DNA from: a virus
Virus record (IMG/VR): IMGVR_UViG_3300005582_000020
Coordinates: 1 to 43,704 of that record
Reading direction: 5' to 3' (one strand)
DNA length: 43,704 nucleotides
Positions 1 to 34,870 of the stretch are shown here, in pieces (the first letter of the stretch is position 1; each line of letters opens with the position of its first letter). Made by a program: the position numbers and the translations under genes. The notes beneath the pieces were generated by a model. It did no database searches. It was not told the DNA's origin and saw only the letters and a program-made list of their open reading frames with translations.

Positions 1-981
1 GGTAAAAAGGATGCTAAAGAATTGCTATGTCAATATTTAGATAGTCATGACCGTACCGCTGAAGCGAAATATCTACGCAAAGTACATGAATCTGAATTCT
101 TGATGACATTGTGCTGGCTCGCACGTATGAATTTGCGCGGTCTTGAACTGAACGAACATGAATCACTTACACTAGAAAATGAAATTTCCCGACTGTTGAA
201 ACTGGTTCACAAGCCTGAGGTCGTTACAAAAGAACCTAGCAATCGTCCTAACATTCAGGAATTGATGCGTGAGAAAGCCGGTGAGGCAGCAGGTGAACTT
301 GAAGGACTACTTGACGAGTACATCACTACAGGTAAGACTACACAAAAGACAGTTGATATTGTTGCTAAATTCAATGTCATGCCACAGCATATCCCTATCA
401 TTGTTGAGATTTGGAAACGCAAAGCTGAAGAATTTAATCAACTAGTTGAGGGTACAGATAAAGACCTGAACGAGGCTTATGCTTTCTTAGGTAAAGTACA
501 AGTGCGTAATCTTGTCAAATTTGTAGATAACGTTCTAGGTGACTTGAACAGCTATATCTCAATTAAGAAAGCAAGCAAAGCACCTCGCAAACGCAAAGCA
601 GTCCCTGTTGAGAAGATTGTTGCTAAACTCAAGTACTTGAAAGAATTCAAGGATCCAGTCAACAAACTTGAACTGATTAGTGTGCATCCTACTAAGTTAC
701 ACGGTGCAAGCGAGGCATGGGTCTATGATACTGCAAAACGTAAAGTGCATCATTACATTGCTGACGATTACAGTAAGACTTTTACAGTTAAGGGTAATAC
801 GATCCTAGGCTTTGATAGCAATACAAGTGAAGTCAAAACATTGCGTAAGCCGGGTGAGCAGATTAAAGAAATAATGGGTAGCAAGCCGGCTGCACGTAAA
901 TACTTTAAAGAGATTAAAGCAGTAGCAACTGCGCCTAATGGTAGGTTCAATGAGAACATGCTAATACTGAAAGCGTTCTAA
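1..981 (+). CDS. Unknown phage protein, 5'-truncated by window edge
   Basis: The frame is open from the first base, so the true start lies upstream; the first in-frame alternative start is a TTG at 22, which I do not trust. About 326 residues are visible. The protein is highly charged and mostly helical for the first 200 residues, with a basic stretch (APRKRKAVP) around residues 200-210. A more beta-like C-terminal part contains SEAWVYDTAKRKVHHYIADD. There is no signal peptide, membrane segment or catalytic motif that I recognise. Its stop overlaps the next start (TAATG at 979-983), so it is translationally coupled to the small gene and to the MazG gene. Function unknown; the coding call itself is firm. 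Confidence 0.85.
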   Translation, partial: GKKDAKELLCQYLDSHDRTAEAKYLRKVHESEFLMTLCWLARMNLRGLELNEHESLTLENEISRLLKLVHKPEVVTKEPSNRPNIQELMREKAGEAAGELEGLLDEYITTGKTTQKTVDIVAKFNVMPQHIPIIVEIWKRKAEEFNQLVEGTDKDLNEAYAFLGKVQVRNLVKFVDNVLGDLNSYISIKKASKAPRKRKAVPVEKIVAKLKYLKEFKDPVNKLELISVHPTKLHGASEAWVYDTAKRKVHHYIADDYSKTFTVKGNTILGFDSNTSEVKTLRKPGEQIKEIMGSKPAARKYFKEIKAVATAPNGRFNENMLILKAF

Positions 982-1172
982 TGGATAATAGTAAAATAAA
1001 AGACAGGATGACAGAACTAATGGCTCCGGTCGAACAGCAATTACTAATGTGTGATGACAAAGAAGACCAGCTTATGATGGCTTGTGCGATGTTACAACGA
1101 GTAAGTGAAGTCTTTGTTTACCATTTAGGTGAACAAGGAGCAAAACAAATGTTTAAGGATTTGATAAAATGA
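981..1172 (+). CDS. Small hypothetical protein (63 aa)
   Basis: A short acidic, methionine-rich, predicted all-helical protein with two cysteines and no membrane segment. It begins inside the stop of the upstream gene (TAATG), and its own stop overlaps the ATG of the MazG-like gene, giving a three-gene coupled cluster. No domain is recognised. Its retention between two genes with no gap is the main argument that it is real; its role is unknown. Confidence 0.7.
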   Translation: MDNSKIKDRMTELMAPVEQQLLMCDDKEDQLMMACAMLQRVSEVFVYHLGEQGAKQMFKDLIK

Positions 1173-1615
1173 ATGTAGATTTAAACAAATATAGTGATTT
1201 TGTGCAGGCTGTTACAAGCCAACCAAGTAGTGACTTGACAACTTTCATGGACACCCTTGACCGATTAGATGCAAACTATGAACTAGATGCCGATGCCGGT
1301 ATAATGAAATATGGGCCTGACATCAACGTTCCGTTGTTACTGACCGCATGTCTAGGACTAGCCGCAGAGTCAGGCGAGTTTATTGAGATTCCTAAAAAGA
1401 TTTTCTTTCAAGGTAAACCCCTAACTGACGATAATGTCTTTCACATGAAACGTGAACTCGGAGACATCATGTGGTACTGGATTAACGCTTGCAGGGCACT
1501 TCGTCTAGATCCTAATGATGTGATTGCTGAGAACGTAGAGAAACTAAAAGCACGATATCCCGGTGGCGAGTTTAACGTGTTCAATAGTGAGAATCGTCAA
1601 CACAACGATATCTAA
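1169..1615 (+). CDS. mazG: MazG-like nucleotide pyrophosphohydrolase
   Basis: Predicted all-alpha NTP pyrophosphohydrolase. The family signature ExxE...ExxD is present as ESGE (E67, E70) and ELGD (E96, D99), which would bind the Mg ions used to hydrolyse (d)NTPs to monophosphates. At 148 residues it fits single-domain phage MazG enzymes and has about 55 extra N-terminal residues before the core. Phage MazG proteins have been proposed to tune host nucleotide pools or (p)ppGpp; which applies here is not visible. It starts within the stop of the preceding small gene (ATGA overlap) and ends just before a convergent methyltransferase gene, with only 5 bases between the two stops. Confidence 0.88.
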   Translation: MNVDLNKYSDFVQAVTSQPSSDLTTFMDTLDRLDANYELDADAGIMKYGPDINVPLLLTACLGLAAESGEFIEIPKKIFFQGKPLTDDNVFHMKRELGDIMWYWINACRALRLDPNDVIAENVEKLKARYPGGEFNVFNSENRQHNDI

Positions 1616-1620
1616 GTAGA

Positions 1621-2241
1621 TTATTTAGGTAATCTACCTTTTCTTTTTATCTCTTCCGGTGTGCGTTTACGAACTATAAATTCAATCGCACACTCACTTA
1701 TACTATGATAGGTTTGATCTACTCTACCAATATCATATATAAATGTACCATTTATTAATTCAACCTTAAGAACCTCAACCTCACTATTGTATTGATATAA
1801 GAATTCAAATACGTTAGTGCTGACCGGGCTCCAGCTTTCTTCTTTATTAATTGTCCAACTTGTTTTATGATCGGGGTTATGGTTACTAGGCCACACGCCC
1901 TGTTCATACAAATCCTCATCAGGAATAGTTACAATAATATGTCCGCCCGGCTTACAAATTCTAAGCCAATTATCAAATGCTTGGAACGGGTCCCTCATGT
2001 GTTCCAAACAATGACTGCTATGTACAAAATCAAATGTATCATCAGCTACCCCTTCCATAAGTTGAGCATCACCGTCAGGCATATCCCACGCTTTTAAACC
2101 TGTCATTAGTGGAAATTGTTGAGTGTATCTTCCAATTTGGTCGTTACCCGCCCCAATATCAATTCCATAACCTCTAAAATATGTACTAGCAAACCTAGCA
2201 TCTTGTAAACGGCGAATTAATGCCTTGCTTGACTCATTCAT
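1621..2241 (-). CDS. Class I SAM-dependent methyltransferase
   Basis: Rossmann-fold methyltransferase of the Methyltransf_11 type. Motif I is GIDIGAGND (residues 26-34), a DGDAQ segment at 56-60 follows the second strand, SSHCLEHMRDP (75-85) is the post-motif-II signature, and KPGGHIIVTIPD (97-108) is motif III. The C-terminal 90 residues probably form the acceptor-binding cap. The substrate is not evident; small metabolites, sugars or lipids are typical for this subgroup. It is on the minus strand against its neighbours, with its own late-type promoter (minus 2270-2263) and an AAGGAA ribosome site (minus 2251-2246). The start is supported by that spacing. Confidence 0.9.
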   Translation of the reverse strand: MNESSKALIRRLQDARFASTYFRGYGIDIGAGNDQIGRYTQQFPLMTGLKAWDMPDGDAQLMEGVADDTFDFVHSSHCLEHMRDPFQAFDNWLRICKPGGHIIVTIPDEDLYEQGVWPSNHNPDHKTSWTINKEESWSPVSTNVFEFLYQYNSEVEVLKVELINGTFIYDIGRVDQTYHSISECAIEFIVRKRTPEEIKRKGRLPK

Positions 2242-2253
2242 TGTATTCCTTAA

Positions 2254-2274
2254 GTAAAATTATATTTATTTTAC
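2254..2274 (-). promoter_or_regulatory. Late promoter inside an inverted repeat, methyltransferase gene
   Basis: On the minus strand AATAAATA (2270-2263) matches the T4 late promoter TATAAATA at 7 of 8 positions. It is straddled by GTAAAAT-N7-ATTTTAC (2274-2254), a perfect 7-bp inverted repeat. With T4 geometry, transcription would start at about 2257, after the upstream arm. The downstream arm ends two bases before the AAGGAA ribosome site. The arms are AT-rich, so chance cannot be excluded. Confidence 0.5.
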
Positions 2275-2324
2275 ACTCACTTATCTAAAATAAAAGTTGA
2301 GTTTAGTTCATTGTACTATGGTTT

Positions 2325-2347
2325 CCAGATAAATATATTATCTGGAG
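2325..2347 (+). promoter_or_regulatory. Late promoter nested in an RBS-sequestering inverted repeat
   Basis: GATAAATA (2328-2335) is a 7/8 match to the T4 late promoter. It lies within the perfect inverted repeat CCAGATAA-N5-TTATCTGG (2325-2332 with 2338-2345). The right arm runs into the ribosome site GGAGA (2344-2348) ahead of the ATG at 2354. With T4 spacing the transcript would begin near 2341, so late mRNA lacks the left arm, while a read-through mRNA could fold and cover the ribosome site. Confidence 0.65.
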
Positions 2348-2353
2348 AACACA

Positions 2354-3124
2354 ATGGCAATTCTGCAATCAACTAGTTTAGACGCATTAAAAGAAGATTT
2401 ATTTAGAAACTTACGCTTACGTATGGGCGAAGGCATTGTTGACGTTGAATTAGATCCTGAACATTATGAAGCCGCTTATAAGTATGCGGTTCAAGTATAT
2501 CGTCAACGAGCACAAAATGCAACAGAAGAAGCATATACTTTATTGACATTACAAGAGCATCAGGAAATTTATACTCTTCCCAAAGAATTTATTAATGTAA
2601 GACAAGTATTCCGTCGTACTGTTGGAATGGAGACAGGCCCAGGATCAACTAGTTTTGATCCATTTAGTAGTGCTATTCTTAACACGTATTTACTGAACTA
2701 TAGTTCGGCAGGTGGGTTAGCAACATATGATTTCTATGCAGGATATGTTGAATTGGTTGCACGTATGTTTGGTGGATATGTAATCTACACCTTCAACAAT
2801 GTTACAAAAGAAATTCGCTTAGTGAGAAATATCAAAGGTAACGGTGAACAGATACTAATTTGGGCTGATATTCAAAAGCCTGAATCAACATTACTTCAAG
2901 ATCCGGGAAGTGGTGTTTGGATTGGTGACTGGACCTTTGCTCAATGTATGAGTATCTTGGGTGAAGCCCGTGAAAAGTTTGCAAGCATTGCTGGCCCGGG
3001 TGGCGGCACTACCCTTAACGGATCCGCATTGAAATCCGAAGCTAAAGAAATGCAAGCCACATTATTAGAAGATTTAAAGCGTTATGTGGATTATAGTCAG
3101 CCACTAACTTGGGTACAAGGTTAA
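2354..3124 (+). CDS. Neck / head-tail connector-type structural protein (gp13-like)
   Basis: A 256-residue protein. The N-terminal helices (LDALKEDLFRNLRLRMGEG, then the YEAAYKYAVQVYRQRAQNA region) are followed by a beta-rich centre (IYTLPKEFINVRQVFRRTVG) and a C-terminal helix. This layout, an N-terminal helical segment on a YxLP..v..v..v core, is what I associate with neck proteins of T4-like phages, and the length is in range. Placement just upstream of the tail genes fits a neck role. The residues GPGGGTTLNGSALKSEA near 216-232 form a loop-helix also seen in marine myovirus relatives. It has its own late promoter and a good GGAGA ribosome site. The exact gp13 versus gp14 assignment is uncertain. 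Confidence 0.6.
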   Translation: MAILQSTSLDALKEDLFRNLRLRMGEGIVDVELDPEHYEAAYKYAVQVYRQRAQNATEEAYTLLTLQEHQEIYTLPKEFINVRQVFRRTVGMETGPGSTSFDPFSSAILNTYLLNYSSAGGLATYDFYAGYVELVARMFGGYVIYTFNNVTKEIRLVRNIKGNGEQILIWADIQKPESTLLQDPGSGVWIGDWTFAQCMSILGEAREKFASIAGPGGGTTLNGSALKSEAKEMQATLLEDLKRYVDYSQPLTWVQG

Positions 3125-4725: not shown

Positions 4726-7700
4726 ATGGCACTAGTATCACCAGGCGTAGAAGTAAATATCATCGACCAAAGTCAATATTTACCAGCAGCCACAAATTCA
4801 GTTCCGTTGCTAATTGTTGCATCAGCACAAAATAAAGCAAACGCCGCAGGCACAGCAGTAGCTGTAGGAACAACAAAAGCAAATGCAGGTAAATTATATC
4901 AAGTAACAAGTCAACGTGACTTAACTACTTTGTTTGGTAATCCATTCTTCTATAAGACAACAAATGGTACACCGATTCATGGATATGAATTAAACGAATA
5001 TGGTTTATTAGCAGCCTATTCATTATTGGGCACAACAAATCGTTGCTATATTTTAAGAGCAGATATCGATTTATCAGAATTTGTAGGATCAGTTTCTAGA
5101 CCATCAGGTGAAGCGGTAGATGGTACATATTGGTTAGATACAACTAATAGTACATGGGGCATTTATGAATTTAATGCTACGTCTGGTAAGTTTGTTAATC
5201 AAATTCCATATGTTCTTACAAGTACCGATCAATTAACTGATGCACGACATCCATTAGATACCATTGGTAACGTGGGAGAATATGCAATTGTTGCAATGCA
5301 TCACGCTGGTGAGCCTGCCGGGGATAGTACCTATTTCTATAAAATGATGGATAATACATGGATGACATTAAATAGTGATTCATTGGCTTCAAGTAATCCA
5401 TCAGTAAGTTCTACTATCTCTAATCCAACATTAACTACTGGATATAGTTTTGATATAACATTAACCTGTGAGGCAAGCGGAATGGCATCAACAACCAATA
5501 TTATTGTAGCCGCCGGTGATGATGTGAACGATATTGCAACTTATCTTAATAATTTAAACGACATTCAATTTAACGCTGACGTAATTGATAATAAATTGAA
5601 TATCTATGTAGTTGATGGAAATATTGTCACATTAGCTAATCATTCCACTGACGGTTCCTTGCTTACTCAATTGGGAATTACTGCAGGTTCTTATTATGGT
5701 GTTACATGTCATTATGGTACCAGTGCTCAAATGCCATTATGGACTTCAAGTCAGGCAAAACCCCGTGCTACTGGATCTGTTTGGATTAAAACAAGCAGCG
5801 CCGGGAATGGATTATCACTATCACTCTCAAAATATAGCGTAGCAACTGCTAGTTGGACTTCACAATTTGTTTCAGCATATGGTAGCGAAATTAACGCAAC
5901 CGCTGCATTAGATAGTACTGGTGGAAAGGCTATTCCCCAAAATACAATTTTTGCAAGATATGCTAGTCCTGGTGCTGGCGGTAGTCAAAGTACTGCACCA
6001 GTAAAATTATTTAATAGACTGGCTACGGGGCCTACAGTTACTACTACAACAATAGCTAACCCTACAATTACTACAGGCAATAGTTTTACTGTATATGTGA
6101 GTATTCCTGGTGAAAGATTGTCTAGTATAGATTTACCCGCAACCAAAATAATATTCGAGAATACAGGAACAACCGCGGCTTCATTTGTTACAGATTGGCA
6201 AAATGCTCAAATTCCCTATACAACTGCTACATTAACAACTGATGGAACTATTCAAATTACTCATACATTAGGTGGTGAAATTTTTATATCAGATATTGAC
6301 CCTATAACACTCCAACGCTCAGATGTATTGTATGCTGATTTAGGATTTGATGGGGTAGGTATTAAATATGGACCGATACATACATTTACTGTATCTGTTA
6401 CACCTGAAGCAGTAACAACATCCGGCACAGGTGGATCAATTTCCGTGTCTGTGGATAGTGCAGGAAAATATATAATAAACACTGTTAGTGGTGGTTCCGG
6501 TTACGCAGTGGGTGATGTTTTAAAAGTCAGTGGTGGTTATCTTAGTGGTTCTAACGGTGTTAATGATTTGAAATTAAATGTCACTAAAGTTAATGCAGGA
6601 TCTTTGGAATCAGTTAGAATATCAACAACAACTCAATTTGCAGATAGAAAGTATTATACCCAAATTTCAAATTGGGAAGAAATTGAGTATACTGCAAATG
6701 AAGGTGCTCCTGTAGAATTACCTGCAAACGGTAGATATTGGTACTTTAGCACACCAAGTCAAGTTGATATCATGGTCAACCAAGGTGGAGTATGGAAGGG
6801 ATATAGAAATGTAAACTTTGATAGTTCTGGTCATCCAGCTAACTCAGGAACAAATAATACTGATTCTACGGGCCCTATTGTTAGTGCATCAGCACCAATA
6901 ACGCAAAGTGATGGAACTGTATTGGTTTATGGTGATCTATGGCTTGATTCTGCTGATTTAGAAAACTATCCAATGTTATATCGTTGGGAAGCAGTTAGTA
7001 GTGTAGATCAATGGGTTTTGATTGATAAAAATGACCAAACTAGTAGTAATGGTATTTTGTTTGCTGATGCAAGATGGAGTCATTCGGGTGCTGTGAATCC
7101 AGTAGATGATCCTATTCCATCTATAACTACTTTATTAACTAGTAATCACTTAGATTTAGATGCACCAAATCCAGCTTTATCTCCACAGGGTATGTTATTA
7201 TTCAATACACGCCGTTCAGGATACAATATTAAAGAATTCAAGACTAATTATTTTACAAACAAAAATTATCCTAATGCCGGTAACTATAATTCAGGCGCAC
7301 CGACAAACAATGCTAATTTACCTCAAGTAAGTTATGCTTGGGTTAGTGCTAGCGGATTGAAGTCAGATGGTTCGGCTTACTTAGGTCGTCACGCACAGCG
7401 TCATATGATTGTGTCAGCGATGAAATCGGTAATTGATACAAATCAAACTATACGTGAAGAAGATAATTTCTTTAACTTGATAGCAGCTCCTGGTTATCCA
7501 GAACTACAACCTAATATGGTAACGTTAAACAATGACCGCAATAATACTGCTTACATTGTAGGTGATACTCCATTAAGATTACCAGATCAAGCTACTAATA
7601 TTACAAATTGGGCGACTAATGAAGCATTAGCAACCGAGTCAGGTGAAGATGGTTGGGTTACCCGTGATACGTATTTAGGTGTGTTCTACCCAAGCGGTAT

Positions 7701-8325
7701 TACATCAGATACAACAGGTACAGCCGCAGTTGTTCCTGCAAGTCATATGATGTTACGCACGTTACTAAGAAACGATACATTGGGTTATCCTTGGTTAGCT
7801 CCAGCAGGTACACGCCGTGGTACAATTGACAACGCTACAAATATTGGATACTTAGATGCTACTACTGGTGAATTCCAAGTAGTTAAGAATCGTATGAGTA
7901 TTCGTGATGTGTTATATTTGAATCAAATCAATCCATTAGCATTCTTTACTGGTGTTGGTCTATTGAATTATGGTAATAAGAACTCATTTGATTCACAATC
8001 AGCATTGGATCGCATCAATGTATCACGTTTAGTTTGTTATATTCGTGAAAGACTGCAAGTTGCGGCTCGTCCATTCGTATTCGAACCAAACGATGCTCTT
8101 ACACGTAATCAACTTACCGGTGTTGTTCAGTCATTGTTTATTGACTTAGTTGGAAAGCGCGGATTGTATGACTATCTAGTTGTATGTGATGCAAGTAATA
8201 ATACTCCATCTAGAATTGATAGAAATGAATTGTGGATTGATATTGCAATTGAGCCAGTTAAGGCAGCAGAATTCATTTACATACCGGTTCGTGTTATGAA
8301 CACCGGGGCTATTGGAGCTCAATAA
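4726..8325 (+). CDS. gp18: Contractile tail sheath protein (gp18-like), enlarged
   Basis: The tail sheath subunit, which polymerises around the tube and contracts on infection. The N-terminus MALVSPGVEVNIIDQSQY is the classic sheath start. The C-terminal part (about residues 820-1199) carries the conserved core: SYAWVSASG, a long AMKSVIDTNQTIREEDNFFNL helix region, LNQINPLAFFTGVGLLNYG and the final WIDIAIEPVKAAEFIYIPVR strand. It is 1199 residues against about 660 in T4, the extra material being a large central insertion. The insertion contains GDLWLDSADLENYP/NGILFADARW, typical of marine relatives, and two related beta domains starting TISNPTLTTGYSF (230-242) and TIANPTITTGNSF (442-454). AAAGGAAAA is a good ribosome site. 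Confidence 0.95.
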   Translation: MALVSPGVEVNIIDQSQYLPAATNSVPLLIVASAQNKANAAGTAVAVGTTKANAGKLYQVTSQRDLTTLFGNPFFYKTTNGTPIHGYELNEYGLLAAYSLLGTTNRCYILRADIDLSEFVGSVSRPSGEAVDGTYWLDTTNSTWGIYEFNATSGKFVNQIPYVLTSTDQLTDARHPLDTIGNVGEYAIVAMHHAGEPAGDSTYFYKMMDNTWMTLNSDSLASSNPSVSSTISNPTLTTGYSFDITLTCEASGMASTTNIIVAAGDDVNDIATYLNNLNDIQFNADVIDNKLNIYVVDGNIVTLANHSTDGSLLTQLGITAGSYYGVTCHYGTSAQMPLWTSSQAKPRATGSVWIKTSSAGNGLSLSLSKYSVATASWTSQFVSAYGSEINATAALDSTGGKAIPQNTIFARYASPGAGGSQSTAPVKLFNRLATGPTVTTTTIANPTITTGNSFTVYVSIPGERLSSIDLPATKIIFENTGTTAASFVTDWQNAQIPYTTATLTTDGTIQITHTLGGEIFISDIDPITLQRSDVLYADLGFDGVGIKYGPIHTFTVSVTPEAVTTSGTGGSISVSVDSAGKYIINTVSGGSGYAVGDVLKVSGGYLSGSNGVNDLKLNVTKVNAGSLESVRISTTTQFADRKYYTQISNWEEIEYTANEGAPVELPANGRYWYFSTPSQVDIMVNQGGVWKGYRNVNFDSSGHPANSGTNNTDSTGPIVSASAPITQSDGTVLVYGDLWLDSADLENYPMLYRWEAVSSVDQWVLIDKNDQTSSNGILFADARWSHSGAVNPVDDPIPSITTLLTSNHLDLDAPNPALSPQGMLLFNTRRSGYNIKEFKTNYFTNKNYPNAGNYNSGAPTNNANLPQVSYAWVSASGLKSDGSAYLGRHAQRHMIVSAMKSVIDTNQTIREEDNFFNLIAAPGYPELQPNMVTLNNDRNNTAYIVGDTPLRLPDQATNITNWATNEALATESGEDGWVTRDTYLGVFYPSGITSDTTGTAAVVPASHMMLRTLLRNDTLGYPWLAPAGTRRGTIDNATNIGYLDATTGEFQVVKNRMSIRDVLYLNQINPLAFFTGVGLLNYGNKNSFDSQSALDRINVSRLVCYIRERLQVAARPFVFEPNDALTRNQLTGVVQSLFIDLVGKRGLYDYLVVCDASNNTPSRIDRNELWIDIAIEPVKAAEFIYIPVRVMNTGAIGAQ

Positions 8326-25184: not shown

Positions 25185-25420
25185 TGGAACACCCTTTCAT
25201 GCCAGATTTGTCAAATAAAACAATAGATGAACTACAAACATCTATTCAAGATTTAACTAGTAAATTAACTTTTGCACATCGTATTGGTAAAGAGTTTATG
25301 GTAAATCAAATACATATGGTTCTTGAAGGCTATAACAAAGAATATGCCAAGAGAATGGATGAACTGTACAAGAAGCAAAACATCCAAAACAATATCAAAA
25401 TTGACAATAATAAAGCCTAA
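25184..25420 (+). CDS. Small helical hypothetical protein
   Basis: A 78-residue helical protein; the start is placed at the ATG overlapping the upstream stop (TAATG), which gives MEHPFMPDLSNKTIDELQ. Using the upstream alternative at 25154 would only add residues read within the neighbour. Pattern: PDLSNKTIDEL, then a long amphipathic helix containing VNQIHMVLEGYNKEYAKRMDEL. Similar small proteins occur in T4-like marine phages without assigned function. It is the last gene of the late fibre unit. Confidence 0.75.
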   Translation: MEHPFMPDLSNKTIDELQTSIQDLTSKLTFAHRIGKEFMVNQIHMVLEGYNKEYAKRMDELYKKQNIQNNIKIDNNKA

Positions 25421-25435
25421 AAGGGCAAATAGCTA

Positions 25436-25464
25436 TTGTATTTTTGTAGAAACTATGTTATCAT
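25436..25464 (+). promoter_or_regulatory. Early-type extended -10 promoter, DnaE-like/groES/gp44 unit
   Basis: TTGTAT (25436-25441), a 17-base spacer and TATCAT (25459-25464) preceded by TGT, i.e. an extended -10. The element CTATG-TTAT-CATAG is a short palindrome around it. The predicted start at about 25471 coincides with the ATG, and no Shine-Dalgarno sequence is present. Confidence 0.5.
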
Positions 25465-25470
25465 AGCACA

Positions 25471-25977
25471 ATGCAAATTGATATATACGGTCAGCAAATT
25501 TTAGATGAAATGGACTTATGCAGTGCCTTTCTATCTGACCCCAACATAAAAATCAAAAACGCATTAGTCTCTGATGATATCTATTTTGATAAAGATTTAG
25601 AGATAGAAAATATACCCACATTCAAGAAATATGTCAAGCAATCTATAACTAAGGAAGAGTTTGACAATCAATTACAACGTAATTGGTTTATTCCAGAAGA
25701 ATACAATCAATTAGATATAGCCAAACATGTACTAGACTTATGTCAAACTGACGCAGAATTACAACGAGTTGGGCAAGAGTTAATATTATATCAGCAACGA
25801 GATTTGTTTCAATTATTGCGTTATTGTAAGTATCTAGTTGATACTATGAGAGCAAATAAAGTTGTTTGGGGAGTAGGTCGTGGTAGTAGTGTATCCAGTT
25901 ATGTTCTGTATTTGATGGGGATACACAGAATAAATAGTTTGCATTATGACTTGTCCATTGACGAGTTCTTAAAATAA
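25471..25977 (+). CDS. DnaE-like fragment (DNA polymerase III alpha palm segment)
   Basis: A 168-residue protein whose last 35 residues (VVWGVGRGSSVSSYVLYLMG, then IHRINSLHYDLSIDEFLK) align with the conserved DnaE segment GRGS-x-x-GSLVAY-x-L-x-I-x-x-x-(D/N)PL-x-(F/Y)-x-L-x-F-x-R-FL. In bacterial DnaE this leads directly into the PDFDVDF strand that carries the catalytic aspartates. Here the stop comes just before that strand, so the protein cannot be a polymerase on its own. The N-terminal 120 residues are helical and not clearly PHP-like. It heads an operon with the GroES-like gene and the clamp loader, suggesting a replication-related role such as a decoy or accessory. Function unknown. Confidence 0.75.
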   Translation: MQIDIYGQQILDEMDLCSAFLSDPNIKIKNALVSDDIYFDKDLEIENIPTFKKYVKQSITKEEFDNQLQRNWFIPEEYNQLDIAKHVLDLCQTDAELQRVGQELILYQQRDLFQLLRYCKYLVDTMRANKVVWGVGRGSSVSSYVLYLMGIHRINSLHYDLSIDEFLK

Positions 25978-25987
25978 GGAGAAAATT

Positions 25988-26356
25988 ATGCATAGATCAG
26001 CATTAGGTAAAACAGTAGATATGTCTTCATTGGTTTCAAAAAATGAAAAAGTACGTGCCGTGGGTAACATGAACGTAAATGCTAGAGGTGATATTATCGA
26101 CAGTCACGGCAGAGTGGTACAGGATAATACACAACGAGTTAAAAGACAATATAGTAATACTGTTAATAAACCATCAATTCAAGAAGATGTACAACCAGAA
26201 GTTGTAACTCCTGTAGTTACTCCTCCACCGGTAGTAGAAGTAATAGCACCTGACTTGAATCCAGAAGAACAAAAAATGTTTGAAGAATTTGATGATTACG
26301 AAGAAGTTGAAGAAATCAAGCAAACCGAAACAGAGAAACCGAAAGCAAAGAAATGA
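25988..26356 (+). CDS. Hypothetical protein with disordered acidic tail
   Basis: A 122-residue protein. A conserved-looking N-terminal half (MHRSALGKTVDMSSLVSKNE, then VRAVGNMNVNARGDIIDSHG) is followed by a Pro/Val-rich linker and an acidic then lysine-rich tail. The N-terminal pattern is one I associate with a small protein in other marine myoviruses, without known function. AAGGAGAAAA is a strong ribosome site at 8-12 bases. Its stop overlaps the groES-like start (ATGA). Confidence 0.75.
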   Translation: MHRSALGKTVDMSSLVSKNEKVRAVGNMNVNARGDIIDSHGRVVQDNTQRVKRQYSNTVNKPSIQEDVQPEVVTPVVTPPPVVEVIAPDLNPEEQKMFEEFDDYEEVEEIKQTETEKPKAKK

Positions 26357-26721
26357 AATTAGCGTTTGAACCACATAAGTTTAGTAAAGAGAGTTTTAAA
26401 CCCGTTGGAAAACATATCATTGTAAGTGATATGGAATTTGATGAGCGAATCACGACAGGTGGAATCGTGTTGTTATCTGATAATCGTAAGGATCATGGTA
26501 TCAGACCACGCTGGGCGCAAGTATATGCATTGGGTTCTGACTTCAATGATGATGAGATACAAGTGGGTAAATGGATTTGTATTAGTCATGGAAGATGGAC
26601 ACGGGGCATTGATGTTGAAGATGAAACGGGAGAAAAGACGTTGCGTAGAGTCGATGAAAATGATATACTACTAGTATCAGACGAACCCGTCTATGATTTA
26701 ACAATTGGTGAAAAAGGATAA
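26353..26721 (+). CDS. GroES/gp31-like co-chaperonin
   Basis: A 122-residue co-chaperonin that should cap host GroEL, as T4 gp31 does for major head protein folding. KPVGKHIIV (16-24) is the first strand. DERITTGGIVLLSD holds the mobile loop with the GroEL-binding tripeptide I38-V39-L40 after G36-G37. RPRWAQVYALGSDF (51-64), VGKWICISHGRW (71-82) and DENDILLVSD (101-110) complete the GroES beta-barrel order. It has about 12 extra N-terminal residues and a short C-terminal extension compared with bacterial GroES. It overlaps the upstream stop and lies in the early-type operon with the clamp loader. Confidence 0.85.
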   Translation: MKLAFEPHKFSKESFKPVGKHIIVSDMEFDERITTGGIVLLSDNRKDHGIRPRWAQVYALGSDFNDDEIQVGKWICISHGRWTRGIDVEDETGEKTLRRVDENDILLVSDEPVYDLTIGEKG

Positions 26722-26723
26722 AA

Positions 26724-27053
26724 ATGAAATGGTTAGATAATTGGTTCTTAAAGAAAGTACGTTGGGCTTGGGATCATCAAGAAGCAGACGAAGGACCCAA
26801 TCTTGTTATGACTGGTAGTAAAAGACAAAACATCGGTCGTGCGATTTCAACAAGACATGATTCTTCTGGTGAATTAGAAAGTCGTGGGGTATCATTCAAT
26901 CTATATTCTGCTAACGGCGGGCATGTAGTTGAACTGCGTAACTATGATGATAAAGCAGACAGAATAAAAAACTCATTACATATCATACCACATGACAAAG
27001 ACTTGGGTGAAGCACTTAACCACATTATCACTTACGAAGCATTAAAACGATGA
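26724..27053 (+). CDS. Hypothetical protein (109 aa)
   Basis: A soluble alpha/beta protein with a conserved-looking ESRGVSFNLYSANGGHVVEL strand pair and a C-terminal DLGEALNHIITYEAL helix. No enzyme motif is seen. It begins 2 bases after the groES-like stop with AAGGA, and its stop overlaps the clamp-loader start, so it is part of the same unit. Such a protein occurs beside gp44 in some marine phages, but no role is assigned. Confidence 0.75.
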   Translation: MKWLDNWFLKKVRWAWDHQEADEGPNLVMTGSKRQNIGRAISTRHDSSGELESRGVSFNLYSANGGHVVELRNYDDKADRIKNSLHIIPHDKDLGEALNHIITYEALKR

Positions 27054-27973
27054 AAAATCAACTCTGGGTAGAAAAATATAGACCTCATTCTGTAGAAGAT
27101 TATGTCTTTGTAGATGACAGACAGAAAGAGCAAGTTAACGGTTGGATAGAAACTGAAAGCATCCCTCATCTATTGTTAAGTGGCGAACCCGGTACAGGTA
27201 AGACTACACTTGCAAAAGTTCTTATACAAGAATTAGGTGTAGAAGAATATGATGTATTGGAAATCAATGCATCACGTGAGAATAGTGTTGACGTAGTGCG
27301 AAACAAAATCATTGGCTTTGTGCAAACAATGCCATTTGGTAAATTCAAAGTCGTATTATTAGATGAGGCAGATTATCTAACTCCAGCAGGTCAGGCAGCA
27401 TTGCGTAATGATATGGAAGCATATCACATGACTGCACGATTTATTCTAACTTGTAACTATGAACACAGAATTATCCCTGCACTTAAAAGCAGATGTCATG
27501 AATTTAGAATAACTAAAACGGATAAGACAGAATTTACTGCACGTGCCGCAACAGTATTGGTTGCTGAGAACATAGACTTTGATTTAGATATACTAGATAG
27601 CTATGTCAGTGCTACATATCCTGACTTGCGTAAGTGTTTGAATCAGATTCAAGTAAATAGTAGTACGGGTAAATTGTTACCTCCAGTAGATGCTGGCAAA
27701 GGTGAAGATGAATTGCTTTTTGAAGCAACACAATTGTTTAAAGCAGGTAAAATTTTAGAAGGTCGTCAGCAATTACTACAACATTTAAGTTTATATCCTA
27801 GTAGATTAGAAGATATCTATCGTTGGCTGTATAATAATTTAGATTTGTGGGGTAATTCAAACGAGAAGCGTGATGCTAGTATCATTATCATTCGTAATGG
27901 TCTAGCGAATCTATCAATGGTTGGCATCCCTGAGATCAGTCTTGCAGCCACAATGGTAGAATTAACAAGTTGA
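27050..27973 (+). CDS. gp44: Clamp loader AAA+ ATPase (gp44-like)
   Basis: Large subunit of the sliding-clamp loader that opens the clamp and places it on primer-template DNA. Visible motifs are WVEKYRP (6-12), Walker A GEPGTGKT (45-52), Walker B VVLLDEAD (101-108), sensor 1 in LTCN (133-136) and the SRC motif with its arginine finger (147-149). The C-terminal helical collar starts near residue 205. At 307 residues it is close to T4 gp44 (319). The partner subunit gp62 is not recognisable in the next gene. The start overlaps the upstream stop, giving translational coupling. Confidence 0.95.
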   Translation: MKNQLWVEKYRPHSVEDYVFVDDRQKEQVNGWIETESIPHLLLSGEPGTGKTTLAKVLIQELGVEEYDVLEINASRENSVDVVRNKIIGFVQTMPFGKFKVVLLDEADYLTPAGQAALRNDMEAYHMTARFILTCNYEHRIIPALKSRCHEFRITKTDKTEFTARAATVLVAENIDFDLDILDSYVSATYPDLRKCLNQIQVNSSTGKLLPPVDAGKGEDELLFEATQLFKAGKILEGRQQLLQHLSLYPSRLEDIYRWLYNNLDLWGNSNEKRDASIIIIRNGLANLSMVGIPEISLAATMVELTS

Positions 27974-28267: not shown

Positions 28268-29056
28268 TTAAGCGTACAGTCTAAGTACGTGCTCTATAAT
28301 TTTGTGGCGTTGAACATCTTTCAGTTCAAAGTTACACAATTGCAACCCTGGAATCACCCCCTTCCCCAATCGATTTTGTAAGTCTAGTAGCCCATTGTCG
28401 GCTTTTTTTCTATCAGCTTGTTCTATGTCGCCAGTAATTACAATCTTACTGCCGATACTGATTCTAGTCATAATCATCTTGAGTTGACTGGGGGTTGCGT
28501 TTTGAGCCTCATCTAATACGATATAGCTATGTTTAAAGTTTCGACCTCGACAGAATGCTAGGGGTGCAATTTCCACTATCTGTTCTTCTAGCATGTGGGC
28601 GATTTCCTTTACCGTATAATACTCTCTCAATACATCAAGCAAAGGTCTTGTCCAAGGTTCCATCTTAGCGTTCAGATCACCTGGCAAGAAGCCATGCTTT
28701 TCATCATCTACCCCAACGGCGGGTCGTGTAAGAATGATACGAGAAACTTCACCTGCTTTTAGTGCTTTGATTGCAGCTAACATAGCAAGATAAGTTTTTC
28801 CCGTTCCTGCAGGTCCACCGACCACGACAATATCAGTCTCTTGGTCTAGTAGTGCGAGGATATATTTTTCTTGGTTTACTGATTTGGGCACCATGACAAT
28901 GGGCTTACTATTCAGCTTAGGACGACTTTGGTCAAAGTTGATTGTTTTTGATTCGTGTGTGTAGTATGTTTTCTGTGTGTTATCGTATTTTTTACTGTGT
29001 GCGTATCTTGTATCTTGATCCTGAGTGCGTAAAGCACTTGTTTTGCGTTTGCTCAA
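28268..29056 (-). CDS. phoH: PhoH-like ATPase
   Basis: A P-loop ATPase of the PhoH family, widespread in marine phages. Walker A is GGPAGTGKT (80-88), the Walker B strand is IVLDEAQN (179-186), and RIILTRPAVG, EKHGFLPGDL and ITGDIEQAD are the family-specific blocks. The first 55 residues are a polar, probably disordered extension. The start is TTG at 29056, backed by AGGAGA on the minus strand. Proposed roles range from phosphate-stress response to RNA metabolism; none is proven for phages. It is the one minus-strand gene in this part of the genome, with its own promoter candidate and terminator. Confidence 0.95.
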   Translation of the reverse strand: MSKRKTSALRTQDQDTRYAHSKKYDNTQKTYYTHESKTINFDQSRPKLNSKPIVMVPKSVNQEKYILALLDQETDIVVVGGPAGTGKTYLAMLAAIKALKAGEVSRIILTRPAVGVDDEKHGFLPGDLNAKMEPWTRPLLDVLREYYTVKEIAHMLEEQIVEIAPLAFCRGRNFKHSYIVLDEAQNATPSQLKMIMTRISIGSKIVITGDIEQADRKKADNGLLDLQNRLGKGVIPGLQLCNFELKDVQRHKIIEHVLRLYA

Positions 29057-31068: not shown

Positions 31069-31881
31069 ATGGAACACTATCAAACTTTAGGGGTAGACAG
31101 AAATGCCTCCTCCGATGACATTAAAAAAGCATATCGCAAATTAGCAGGAGTTCATCACCCGGACAAGGGTGGTGATACTGCTACATTTCAAAAAATTCAA
31201 AGTGCTTATGAAACACTAAGCGATCCACAAAAGAAACAAGAATACGATAATCCAAATCCGTTTGGTCAAGGCGGTGGCCCTGGTGGCTTTCACTTTACTA
31301 CAGGTGGAGGAGGGTTTAATATGCAGTTCAATGATATTTTTGGGCAGATGTTTGGGGGACAACGTAATAATCCTTTTGGTCATTCTTTCCAACAAACATT
31401 TAAGACAACCATTTGGGTATCGTTAGAACAAGTATTCAATGGGGCTGAACAACTATTACAACTACAAGGTCAGGGCGGCCCTCAAACTATTAAAGTTGAG
31501 ATTCCAAAAGGAATAGAGAACGGTGCTCAAATGAGATATGATAATCTCATTGCCGGCGGAGTTCTTATTGTTGAATTCAGAGTTCATGTACATCCTAAGT
31601 TTGACCGTGTGGGGCAAGACTTAGTTTCACAACATAGAATTAGTGTATTAGATTTGATTGTGGGTACGTCATTTGATTTCACTACTATTAGTGGGAAAAC
31701 ATTTCAAGTCCAAGTCAAACCAGGAACACAACCTGATAGTACATTAAGAGTTTCGGGTCAGGGATTACCTCACATGAATGAACAAGGCAACGGTGACCAA
31801 TTGCTATTGCTTAAACCATTTATTCCTGATAAAATAGACAACAAGATAACTGCTAGCATTTTGCAGAGTCGAAGTAATTAA
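31069..31881 (+). CDS. dnaJ: DnaJ/CbpA-type co-chaperone (type B J-protein)
   Basis: A 270-residue Hsp40. The J-domain (2-62) carries the DnaK-contact HPD at 30-32, with KKAYRKLAGVHHPDKGG and SAYETLSDPQKKQEYD around it. A Gly/Phe-rich linker (66-110) follows, and then two C-terminal beta domains (TIWVSLEQVFNGAEQLLQ; IKVEIPKGIENGAQMRY; HISV-like and LRVSGQGLPHM blocks). There is no CxxCxGxG zinc domain, so it is type B. Substrate binding and delivery to host DnaK are the expected role. It has no Shine-Dalgarno sequence and a start codon beside the predicted transcription start. It is followed by clpA. Confidence 0.92.
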   Translation: MEHYQTLGVDRNASSDDIKKAYRKLAGVHHPDKGGDTATFQKIQSAYETLSDPQKKQEYDNPNPFGQGGGPGGFHFTTGGGGFNMQFNDIFGQMFGGQRNNPFGHSFQQTFKTTIWVSLEQVFNGAEQLLQLQGQGGPQTIKVEIPKGIENGAQMRYDNLIAGGVLIVEFRVHVHPKFDRVGQDLVSQHRISVLDLIVGTSFDFTTISGKTFQVQVKPGTQPDSTLRVSGQGLPHMNEQGNGDQLLLLKPFIPDKIDNKITASILQSRSN

Positions 31882-31905: not shown

Positions 31906-34188
31906 TTGCACTCACCGGAAATCGAATCAATTATTGAAAAAGCAGTTGATTTAGCAAAACAACGCAACCATCAATATTGCACAGTAGAACATCTACTATT
32001 AGCATTAATTTCTTATGCACCATTTCAGAAATGTATAGGCAGCTTTGGTATTGATGCAGATACTATGAGTAAAGAAGTAATTACATATTTAGATAATTTA
32101 AAATATATCGAATTATCAGTATCTGAAGGACAAGAAATTCAGCCACGCAAAACTAATAGCTTAGAACGTGTAATGAATCGTAGCGTTACTCAAGTATTAT
32201 TTACCGGTCGTAAAGTTGTAACAACTATTGACTTGTATCTTAGTATTATGGCTGAAGGCAATAGTCATGCACAGTATTTCTTATTGAAACATGGTTTTGT
32301 TAAGAATGAATTTGTTCCTTTTTGGCAAAAACATTACAAAGGCACACAAGCTGATGTTAAACTAACAGACGAACAAGCAGATAATATCCTAGAAGAATAC
32401 ACTATCAATTTAACACAACTGGCTAAGTTGCAGAAACTAGAGCCTGTGATTGGTCGTAGTAAAGAAGTTGATGACATTATCAATGTATTAGCTAAACGAT
32501 TCAAGTCAAATGTATTGATGGTAGGTGATCCTGGTGTTGGTAAAACTGCAATTGCAGAAGGTCTAGCACAAATGATTGTCAATGATGAAGTCCCTGAATT
32601 CTTAAAAGACCATGAACTTTACAGTTTAGAGATCGGTAGTCTATTAGCAGGTAGTAAGTATCGCGGTGACTTTGAAGAAAAAGTTAAAGCAGTACTTGAT
32701 GCACTGACTGTTAAGAAAGATGCAATTCTGTTCATTGACGAAGCACATACAATGCGTGGCGCCGGTGGTGCAACAAATGGTGCAGTTGATTTTGCTAACA
32801 TGATTAAACCTGCAATTACTAAGGGTACATTAAAAGTTATTGCAAGTACAACTTGGGAAGAGTACTACGAATCATTTGAAAAGGACCGCGCATTGATGCG
32901 AAGGTTCTATCGTGTGAGTATTGATGAACCAAGTCGTGAATCTACAGTTAGTATTCTTAAAGGTCTAAGTGTACGATTGAATGACTTCCACAGTGTGGAG
33001 ATTACAGATGAAGCGATTGAAGCCGCAGTTGAAGGTGCAACACGATACATTCAGGATCGTAAGAATCCAGACAAGTCTATTGATTTGTTAGATGCCGCTT
33101 GTGCTAAACAACGAGTAGCAGAGAACAAGGGCGCTATCATTACTAAAGAATTAGTGTTTGATCAGATTGAAAAATACACCGGAGTTCCTGCTGATAAATT
33201 AACTGATGATAACTCAGAACGTATTATTAACCTTGAGTCTAATGTAAAATCAAAACTATATGGACAAGAAGAAACAGTTAATAAGGTACTTGAACGTGTA
33301 TATGTTAGTTTTGCTGGTATCGGCAATCAAACTAAACCACAAGCGAGTTTCTTATTCTTAGGCCCAACCGGTACAGGTAAAACTGAATTAGCTAAATTAT
33401 TGTCTAAGAACCTTGACATGAAACTACTCAAGTACGATATGTCAGAGTATGGTGAAAAGTTTTCGGTATCAAGTTTGATTGGCGCGCCCCCGGGCTATGT
33501 TGGCTTTGGTGAGGGATCACTAGGTGGTGGACGACTGATTAATGACTTAAGCAAGAACCCACATTCAATTCTATTATTTGACGAAGTTGAAAAGGCTCAC
33601 CCAGATATCTTTAATATCTTCTTGCAATTGCTTGATGAAGGTCGTGTTACCGGTAGCAATGGTAAAGAAGTCAATGCTAAAAACTGTATTATCATTATGA
33701 CTAGTAACTTAGGTAGTGGTGACAGTGAACGAAATGTAATTGGTTTTGGTAGTCAAGAACGTAGCGGGGAAGATGACAAAGCATTAAAAGAATTCTTTAA
33801 GCCAGAATTCAGAAATCGAATTGACTTGGTATGTAAGTTTGGTAAACTAGATATGTTGGCAATCAAAAAAATTGTTATTAAATTTGCTGATGACTTGAAG
33901 AAATCTCTCAGAGAGGCACATAATATTACACTACACTTGAGCGAACCAGTAGTTGAGTATCTAGCAGAAAAGGGTTATGATAATAAAATGGGAGCCCGCC
34001 CACTAGCAAGAAAGATTGATGAACTAATTCGGGTACCTCTGAGCAAGAAACTCTTGTTTGAGCGTATCAAAAATAGTACAATCAATGCTAACTTAGAGAA
34101 CGGAGAAATTGTTTTTGATGTTCAACAAAAATTAATAGCAGAAGTAGGTGAAGATGGCATTATTAAAGTTACAACAGACACGCAGTGA
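31906..34188 (+). CDS. clpA: ClpA-type AAA+ unfoldase
   Basis: A 760-residue Clp ATPase matching ClpA in length (758 in E. coli) and order, with no ClpB middle coiled coil. An N-domain (about 1-140, TVEHLLLALI) is followed by AAA1 with Walker A GDPGVGKT (207-214), Walker B ILFIDEAH (274-281) and KYRGDFE pore loop. AAA2 has Walker A GPTGTGKT (486-493), Walker B LLFDEVEKAHPD (from 556) and pore loop GAPPGYVGF. The tripeptide I612-G613-F614 sits where ClpA carries its ClpP-docking IGL loop. It probably unfolds proteins for host ClpP. The start is TTG with AAGGA 7 bases upstream. No phage clpP is visible in this window. Confidence 0.93.
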   Translation: MHSPEIESIIEKAVDLAKQRNHQYCTVEHLLLALISYAPFQKCIGSFGIDADTMSKEVITYLDNLKYIELSVSEGQEIQPRKTNSLERVMNRSVTQVLFTGRKVVTTIDLYLSIMAEGNSHAQYFLLKHGFVKNEFVPFWQKHYKGTQADVKLTDEQADNILEEYTINLTQLAKLQKLEPVIGRSKEVDDIINVLAKRFKSNVLMVGDPGVGKTAIAEGLAQMIVNDEVPEFLKDHELYSLEIGSLLAGSKYRGDFEEKVKAVLDALTVKKDAILFIDEAHTMRGAGGATNGAVDFANMIKPAITKGTLKVIASTTWEEYYESFEKDRALMRRFYRVSIDEPSRESTVSILKGLSVRLNDFHSVEITDEAIEAAVEGATRYIQDRKNPDKSIDLLDAACAKQRVAENKGAIITKELVFDQIEKYTGVPADKLTDDNSERIINLESNVKSKLYGQEETVNKVLERVYVSFAGIGNQTKPQASFLFLGPTGTGKTELAKLLSKNLDMKLLKYDMSEYGEKFSVSSLIGAPPGYVGFGEGSLGGGRLINDLSKNPHSILLFDEVEKAHPDIFNIFLQLLDEGRVTGSNGKEVNAKNCIIIMTSNLGSGDSERNVIGFGSQERSGEDDKALKEFFKPEFRNRIDLVCKFGKLDMLAIKKIVIKFADDLKKSLREAHNITLHLSEPVVEYLAEKGYDNKMGARPLARKIDELIRVPLSKKLLFERIKNSTINANLENGEIVFDVQQKLIAEVGEDGIIKVTTDTQ

Positions 34189-34870
34189 TGGCGTAGGGTA
34201 TATCGACCATAGAGACTTGTATTTCGGTAAATTTAATTACCGTGCAAGAGTTCATATGATCGGTGCATATTTATGTTCATATGCTACGAAAAAAGAAGAT
34301 TTTCAAAAGCGAATAAAAATCAATAAGAAAACCATGGCAGGAGCCAAGGTCGATGAACTAGTTCTTTTTGCTGATTGGAAGAATACTCAAAAGAAAGAAA
34401 AGAAAAGTGATATCACTTTTCGTATTGAGGGACAGTCTGCTAGTGTGTTTTCTAATAACCTAGAGTTTTTAAGAGAATTAGAATCACTAGGATTCAATGT
34501 TGATTTTACTGCAATTGAAGATGTAGTACCTGTAGGTATAAAATACTTTGTCAATGAACCCAAATTCAAGTATCGTATCTATTTAAAAAGCAAACGAGTT
34601 TCTGAAGATTTTCCTAAGAAATTGAAGAATATGTTTGATAGGTATAAAGGTACAGGCACTAAAATTTCTCCCAGCCCCTCATTAAATGACTGGTTAACTG
34701 AAAGGGGAACTCCTAGTTTAGGTGGATACCTCTCTTGGAAACGCAGTTATTGTAGCAGTCATTACTTTATTGAATACAATGATGAGAGTTTTATTACGAT
34801 TTTTGCACTTACCTTTACCGGGATTATTTCTAGGAAATACACTTTAGAAAAACGCCCAGAGTCAACATAA
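34154..34870 (+). CDS. Unknown protein overlapping the clpA 3' end
   Basis: A 238-residue protein; the start at ATG 34154 (MALLKLQQTR) is supported by AGG 5 bases upstream, and gives a 35-base overlap with clpA in another frame. It is alpha/beta, basic, with YLCSYATKKEDFQKRIKINKK, FRIEGQSASVFSNNLEFL, IKYFVNEPKFKYRIYLKSKRV and a late YLSWKRSYCSSHYFIEY. I do not recognise a family. The overlap implies translational coupling with clpA, so a partner or adaptor role is conceivable, though unproven. Confidence 0.75.
   Translation: MALLKLQQTRSDGVGYIDHRDLYFGKFNYRARVHMIGAYLCSYATKKEDFQKRIKINKKTMAGAKVDELVLFADWKNTQKKEKKSDITFRIEGQSASVFSNNLEFLRELESLGFNVDFTAIEDVVPVGIKYFVNEPKFKYRIYLKSKRVSEDFPKKLKNMFDRYKGTGTKISPSPSLNDWLTERGTPSLGGYLSWKRSYCSSHYFIEYNDESFITIFALTFTGIISRKYTLEKRPEST

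Follow-up and report, generated by a model that had tools for sequence, protein, structure and literature searches.

Which peptidase does a viral ClpA serve, the host's or one of the virus's own? This question is raised by the clpA gene at positions 31906..34188 of the virus record IMGVR_UViG_3300005582_000020 (IMG/VR), which was analysed as a single window comprising the whole 43,704-bp record. An initial annotation, made from the sequence alone, described the product as a full-length ClpA with a ClpP-docking loop and, as no ClpP gene was seen in the window, suggested that the phage may redirect the ClpP of its host to chosen proteins. Our analysis indicates that the protein is a real ClpA which most likely drives a virus-owned protease; the host's need not be borrowed. 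In terms of a defined machine, the window ClpA is probably the protein-unfolding motor of a ClpAPS protease that belongs to the virus. The gene and its functional parts are as follows, with counts taken over the 81 aligned rows defined below.

31906..34188, plus strand: clpA, 760 amino acids (aa), TTG start
31906..32331, plus strand: N-domain (Clp_N), aa 1-142, with PF02861 at aa 13-62; presumptive ClpS docking place
32524..32547, plus strand: D1 Walker A, GDPGVGKT, aa 207-214; invariant, 81/81
32659..32673, plus strand: D1 loop YRGDF, which we take to be the pore-1 loop, aa 252-256; invariant, 81/81
32728..32751, plus strand: D1 Walker B, LFIDEAHT, aa 275-282; invariant, 81/81
33361..33384, plus strand: D2 Walker A, GPTGTGKT, aa 486-493; invariant, 81/81
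33493..33510, plus strand: D2 pore-1 loop, GYVGFG, aa 530-535; GYVG 81/81, F534 74/81, G535 77/81
33571..33594, plus strand: D2 Walker B, LLFDEVEK, aa 556-563; L556 54/81, remainder 81/81
33739..33747, plus strand: ClpP-docking tripeptide I612-G613-F614, opposite the IGL of 1ksf; 81/81, codons vary

An AAGGA-like site precedes the TTG start. The Pfam domains of the protein follow one another as Clp_N, AAA, AAA_lid_9, AAA_2 and ClpB_D2-small, which is the ClpA order, and the protein is collinear from end to end with PDB entry 1ksf, the ClpA of E. coli (query 4-739 on chain residues 4-746, E-value 8.6e-176), so that its description as a full-length ClpA holds. At 760 aa and with no large insert relative to 1ksf, it has no middle domain of the ClpB/ClpC type. 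A ClpB-like disaggregase was considered and rejected, as this domain is lacking and the NCBIfam ClpB score (658 bits) is lower than that for ClpA (778 bits). The latter score lies below the curated 993-bit cut-off of TIGR02639, the equivalog for cellular ClpA. No ClpA from the 22 phage records that have the gene exceeds this cut-off, and the window protein is therefore classed as part of a phage branch of the ClpA family and not as an equivalog. A structure model agrees in overall fold, resembling ClpA, ClpC, ClpB and Hsp104 chains with Z-scores of 21.7-27.1 among the 50 matches listed.

Conservation was assessed over 81 rows, namely the window and the best 80 of 344 relatives (75-100% identical), which represent 62 different proteins. 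Both Walker sets and the pore loops were found as initially described and, like the RRF, RNR and GAR motifs, are invariant but for L556, F534 and G535. The tripeptide I612-G613-F614 occupies exactly the position assigned to it, and it is invariant although several other positions of the same loop vary; it is encoded by three Ile, four Gly and two Phe codons, in 12 different 9-mers. In E. coli, the IGL loop spans residues 610-628; the clefts of the ClpP ring receive six loops of this kind (PMC9663308). Ratios of nonsynonymous to synonymous substitution rates (dN/dS) between the window clpA and four relatives range from 0.05 to 0.12, with dS near saturation in three of them (1.4-2.3). Judged from these sequence comparisons, clpA is under purifying selection and constrained at the protein level. 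The invariant docking tripeptide, the purifying selection and the absence of a ClpB-type middle domain together argue for a ClpA built to feed a ClpP.

The N-domain, singled out initially as the most diverged part, is indeed the least conserved folded domain, with a median identity of 28.5% to ten bacterial ClpAs (D1, 47.7%; D2, 46.0%; D2-small, 38.5%). The same domain is also the least conserved among those ten bacteria themselves (N-domain, 51.1%; D1, 65.2%; D2, 68.2%; D2-small, 52.8%). Among the best 80 cellular ClpAs listed, the closest near-full-length proteins are 42-43% identical to the window protein and partial ones at most 47%.

The initial reading turned on the missing peptidase. 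The window holds no match to PF00574 (ClpP), as had been stated, and none to ClpS; past clpA, 9.5 kb of the record remain. The search for clpP and clpS, which the initial annotation had proposed for the full genome, was run on relatives: 50 of 80 fetched records were searched for PF00574 and PF02617 (ClpS), and ClpP was found in 11 and ClpS in 10. Both genes are present in all ten records with 68 kb or more of sequence after clpA; the other 40 contain ClpP in one case (record G018, 34 kb upstream of clpA, with no ClpS found) and ClpS in none. Sorting by downstream reach listed 51 records, one of which, L003, stands outside the 50 searched. In nine of the ten long records, ClpP lies 56.6-68.7 kb downstream of clpA in the same orientation. 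The 524-kb record G026, which may join two genomes, has two ClpA and two ClpP genes, and the distance from ClpA at 858-3029 to ClpP at 68036-68578 is 65 kb. As the window is a fragment and its long relatives have ClpP, the lack of ClpP in the window, which gave the appearance of a hijacking factor, is most likely an effect of truncation, and its own phage would be expected to carry clpP and clpS.

The closest long relative, G001 (171 kb), has a ClpA 93% identical to that of the window and aligns with most of the window in one order at 65-89% DNA identity. On its minus strand, a cluster encodes ClpX, bS21, DnaK, Hsp20, ClpS, a SprT-like protein and ClpP, each above its Pfam cut-off. Best PDB E-values are 1.7e-73 for ClpP, 5.6e-13 for ClpS and 5.3e-262 for DnaK, whose relatives bear those names, and 67 PDB sequences named ClpP fall under 1e-60 for the first. 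The ClpX (412 aa) combines an AAA domain with a ClpX zinc finger and has an IGF tripeptide; DnaK has 630 aa and bS21 has 73 aa. Close to ClpS, each of the ten long records has a frame of 401-417 aa with partial ClpX-like matches (that of G001 alone was read fully), and DnaK occurs in five of the ten. In a scan from the ClpP side, covering the best 80 of 596 loci and sharing some records with the clpA-side count, ClpS and Hsp20 were each present in 58 of the 59 loci with 6 kb of upstream sequence. The catalytic triad S97-H122-D171 is intact in all 80 of these loci and in 22/22 aligned phage ClpPs. Two further observations concern this region: the bS21 gene, which scores 51 bits against Pfam S21, is placed between those for ClpX and DnaK at 58326-58547 of G001 on the minus strand (18326-18547 of L098), and in record G017 ClpP has next to it another match to its family (25352-25867; 113 bits), which is more diverged and possibly indicates a two-subunit ClpP.

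The same association was examined in isolated jumbo phages. Among phage genomes, 166 records match ClpA (60 listed), 87 of them with 80% coverage. Twelve isolated jumbo phages, each encoding a full ClpA, were taken from the listed rows: Phosso, PA5oct, Atu_ph07, Kaldavass, CBB, PBECO4, Vibrio 2.275.O, XaC1, Munch, GAP32, BF and RaK2; this choice left out, for example, small unannotated records labelled Listeria or 'Bacteriophage sp.'. Every isolate has a PF00574 match (138-268 bits) and a PF02617 match, the latter above the cut-off in 11 and below it in XaC1 (18.4 bits). Ten jumbo phages chosen by accession, none with a ClpA-length match, served as controls, and ClpS was found in 0/10 of them. 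Fisher's test on ClpS gives 1.5e-6 for isolates against controls, which is to be read with the isolates being mutually related and some controls related to each other, and 0.001 when the isolates are counted as four clades against the ten controls. The GenBank record of PA5oct labels its ClpP 'ESI-MS/MS', a label that we read as detection of the protein by mass spectrometry. In the RefSeq entry of Atu_ph07 (NC_042013.1 463635-464249; L240), ClpP is named 'head maturation protease', a name under which it could hide from keyword surveys.

These data bear directly on the proposal that the phage ClpA docks on host ClpP and steers it to chosen proteins. A ClpA built to feed a ClpP is the part of that proposal which stands, whereas the host enzyme as partner had been deduced from the absence of a phage ClpP. 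Host docking would be chemically plausible: IGF is the ordinary bacterial state, with xGF in 49 of 51 bacterial ClpA rows in a pattern search that took 63 of 80 genome loci (17 were left out, several of them partial). The lack of ClpP in the window also counts in favour of the proposal. However, a hijacking factor would be an unfoldase without a peptidase of its own, and this is not what the lineage shows, since ClpP occurs in 10/10 long records and, by inference, in the phage of the window. With ClpP and ClpS encoded by all ten long-enough relatives and all 12 isolates, reliance on host ClpP for want of a phage enzyme is not supported. PBECO4, an E. coli phage, further has IGM where 1ksf has IGL, and its ClpP pocket differs too. 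(Sharanji, a PBECO4-type relative among the listed matches, has E. coli K12 MG1655 as its host.) Hijacking of host ClpP as the leading explanation is thus overruled by the ClpP and ClpS of the long relatives, and we consider it quite improbable.

The docking loop was also compared with the pocket of the phage ClpP. Pocket positions, given in E. coli numbering, come from 22 aligned phage ClpPs (ten from the lineage, including that of G018 but not that of G043, and those of the 12 isolates). ClpP with F82 and L114 goes with a ClpA IGF in 12/12 cases (the ten lineage members, Atu_ph07 and Phosso). The seven RaK2-like phages have G114 in ClpP and N, Y, C or S at position 82, and this G114 is paired in 7/7 with an xGM, IGV or MNM tripeptide, namely VGM (BF), IGV (RaK2), MNM (Munch), LGM (GAP32 and CBB), IGM (PBECO4) and MGM (Kaldavass). 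M82/T114 is found in the remaining pair that follows a pattern, with VGF in XaC1 and IGV in Vibrio 2.275.O (2/2). This pattern suits a loop that would follow the ClpP of its own phage. A stronger version, in which ClpA jumbo phages keep a private protease whose docking of ClpA and ClpX on phage ClpP co-evolves on both sides, the RaK2-like branch has left the host docking code, and the phages run an N-degron pathway parallel to that of the host, is doubtful, and we offer it tentatively.

The pocket data also raise the possibility of mixed use, with phage ClpA serving phage ClpP while competing with host ClpA or ClpX for host ClpP, or with phage and host subunits forming mixed ClpP rings. In the lineage, L48, F82, M92 and L114 are kept in 80/80 ClpPs, an E. 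coli-like pocket, and as a canonical bacterial pocket suits IGF too, additional use of host ClpP could occur. Against this, position 60 is Ser in 67 of the 80 phage ClpPs and Tyr in E. coli, and position 112 is variable; on balance, mixed use appears unlikely.

The adaptor is also preserved in the lineage. In five aligned records, ClpS keeps N34, D35, M40, H66, E79 and the tandem prolines, with D36 replaced by Glu and M62 by Thr; with these pocket residues kept, ClpS could plausibly bring N-degron proteins to ClpA. Aat, GrpE and GroEL lie outside the gene set: GrpE was found in 0/22 phage records, GroEL in 1/22 (Vibrio phage 2.275.O) and Aat transferase in 0/22, so that degrons would have to come from host Aat or from cleavage. 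DnaK was found in 0/12 isolates.

Taken together, the virus-owned ClpAPS protease would operate as follows. A jumbo myovirus would make its own ClpA hexamer, the six IGF loops of which would dock into the hydrophobic clefts of phage-encoded ClpP. Phage ClpS would bind the ClpA N-domain and deliver N-degron proteins, the presumed substrates, to be unfolded and destroyed, and phage ClpX may act as a second unfoldase for the same ClpP. A folding arm would be provided by phage DnaJ, Hsp20 and a GroES-like protein, with DnaK in some members. Assembly of the phage ClpA, ClpP and ClpS with each other is predicted, and the purpose would be control of host or phage protein levels during infection.

Several observations weigh against this interpretation or parts of it. 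Neither clpP nor clpS is in the window, and record L045, which reaches 60 kb downstream of clpA, has neither gene; since ClpP lies nearer than 60 kb in three of the nine other records, L045 may be an exception, though it does not settle the matter. ClpP-family matches above the Pfam cut-off occur in four of the ten ClpA-less controls, a strong one in phage G (206 bits, with a ClpX-like match next to it) and partial ones in the other three (46-62 bits), so that having ClpP does not by itself mark a ClpA phage. Of the 166 matching records, the isolates make up 12, and nine of these form one branch. The loop/pocket match rests on few deep branches, PA5oct combines Y82/S114 with IGF and falls outside a simple rule, and the lineage pocket (F82 and L114 in 80/80) gives no sign of orthogonality, IGF suiting a canonical bacterial ClpP. 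Several ClpS pocket residues are lost in RaK2-like phages, and the absence of Aat from the 22 records bears on the N-degron step. In the ClpA model, residues 603-648, which include the docking tripeptide, have predicted local distance difference test (pLDDT) values below 50, and the domain arrangement is poor (predicted template modelling score 0.39). Finally, in the nine isolates other than Atu_ph07, PA5oct and Phosso, DnaJ is not beside clpA.

The neighbours of clpA in the window bring in a different kind of explanation. Three genes are relevant here:

31069..31881, plus strand: dnaJ, 270 aa; DnaJ_C and a J-domain in which HPD was identified by eye, no zinc-finger match
26353..26721, plus strand: GroES-like co-chaperonin, a weak assignment from PHROG matches; homologue in 59/61 loci reaching that far
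34148..34870, plus strand: 240-aa gene of unassigned function overlapping the clpA 3' end; present in 74/74 loci reaching that far

The dnaJ gene adjoins clpA in 72/72 lineage loci that extend to it; the two are also adjacent in Atu_ph07 and PA5oct, and one gene separates them in Phosso. ClpA and DnaJ could accordingly be seen as a remodelling or virion-assembly factor working without a peptidase. The position of clpA among virion structural genes in the nine other isolates would fit this, and Iyer et al. suggest that phage ClpA serves as a translocase or in assembly (PMC7824862). With no ClpP to dock on, however, nothing would keep the tripeptide from changing, whereas it is the same in 81/81 rows, and ClpP and ClpS accompany ClpA; a purely chaperone role is therefore exceedingly improbable. 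In the Sinorhizobium phage Phosso, the intervening gene (L105 1939-2457) is annotated as a peptide deformylase, which could bear on N-terminal degrons.

As to the other two neighbours, the product of 26353..26721 matches PHROG 3188 (co-chaperonin GroES, 6.2e-07) and PHROG 931 (head morphogenesis, 4.3e-16), with an NCBIfam GroES score of 20.7 bits, under the cut-off, and no Pfam match. The fast-evolving 240-aa gene has no Pfam or PHROG match but a confident structure model (pLDDT 87). It was considered as an adaptor and set aside: in BFVD it has eight matches at E <= 0.001, including one from Atu_ph07, and every one of them is a phage protein that is itself uncharacterised. Elsewhere in the window, a tail sheath gene (4726-8325), a T4-type clamp-loader subunit (27050-27973) and PhoH (28268-29056) indicate a myovirus with T4-like replication genes.

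The descent of the phage ClpAs was examined in a tree of 98 rows: 22 from the lineage (of the 81), 12 isolates, 52 bacterial ClpAs and 12 ClpC-like proteins. All 34 phage proteins form one clade within ClpA and not ClpC, with a Shimodaira-Hasegawa-like approximate likelihood ratio test (SH-aLRT) value of 99, in a quick search assessed by SH-aLRT only, without bootstrap, and with long branches flagged. This single clade, together with gene orders in PA5oct that match those of the window and G001, points to one old acquisition of ClpA, which would then have been kept by descent. One record, L106 (CAKLQF020000008.1), named 'Acinetobacter phage MD-2021a', encodes clpS, clpA, argC and aroF and looks like a piece of bacterial chromosome. 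Its ClpA groups with that of an Acinetobacter genome; the record was left out of every phage count and treated as one of the bacterial rows.

If phages of this kind own the whole machine, the question shifts from which host protease is hijacked to which proteins are destroyed by the phage's own protease. The system deserves attention for the co-occurrence rule and for the testable idea of a private viral protease; neither the ClpA-ClpP-ClpS co-occurrence rule nor the loop/pocket match was found in the openly licensed PMC literature. Iyer et al. (2021) consider that phage ClpS likely brings targets to host ClpAP and treat ClpP, ClpA and DnaJ apart (PMC7824862). Their ClpS example, AMM43882.1, comes from phage CBB, which owns ClpP (AMM43669.1) and ClpA. 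Chen et al. find phage bS21 close to Hsp20 and to two Clp families and invoke the proteostasis network (PMC9723584), and ClpX, Hsp20 and DnaJ are mentioned for a Sinorhizobium jumbo phage in a paper whose main text does not contain the term 'clps' (PMC11242549).

Compared with known systems, the lineage shares with bacterial ClpAPS of the E. coli type the domain order, the Walker and pore motifs, the position of the tripeptide, the ClpP triad and the ClpS core. It differs in that the window ClpA reaches no more than about 43% identity to near-full-length cellular ClpAs among the best 80 listed, and in that clpS and clpP lie near a clpX and far from clpA. In moraphages, jumbo phages whose core genes include ClpA according to Perez-Hernandez et al. 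(PMC12619734), DnaJ and in some members DnaK and Hsp20 are likewise present, whereas ClpP and ClpS are unnamed in the main text ('clp' appears solely in the ClpA table row) and the predicted hosts are Bacteroidota.

RaK2-like phages (RaK2, PBECO4, GAP32, CBB, BF, Munch and Kaldavass) match the ClpA, ClpP and ClpS families as the lineage does, but their tripeptide and ClpP pocket are altered, ClpP has a C-terminal extension, ClpS is longer and partly degenerate, and clpA stands among structural genes with DnaJ not adjacent. PA5oct (Wroclawvirus) has the PhoH ... DnaJ-ClpA order of the window and the ClpX-bS21 ... Hsp20-ClpS ... ClpP order of G001. It differs in its ClpP pocket (Y82/S114), the absence of a DnaK match, an FtsH-like gene in the cluster and its 287-kb record; at L241 175160-176890, FtsH and an FtsH-interacting membrane protein are annotated beside the Clp cluster. 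Atu_ph07, for which ClpA (gp292), DnaJ (gp293), ClpP (gp676) and ClpS (gp708) were reported (PMC6102473), shares the DnaJ-ClpA pair, its own ClpP and ClpS and the IGF loop, while its ClpA is 38% identical and further Clp proteins are present. Its authors also list ClpX and ClpB, term ClpA highly conserved in most Rak2-like phages, and propose roles for the Clp genes without a test (PMC6102473). The window gene thus joins an already known kind, that of phage ClpAs with relatives carrying a ClpP and a ClpS of their own; the Atu_ph07 trio is a reported example.

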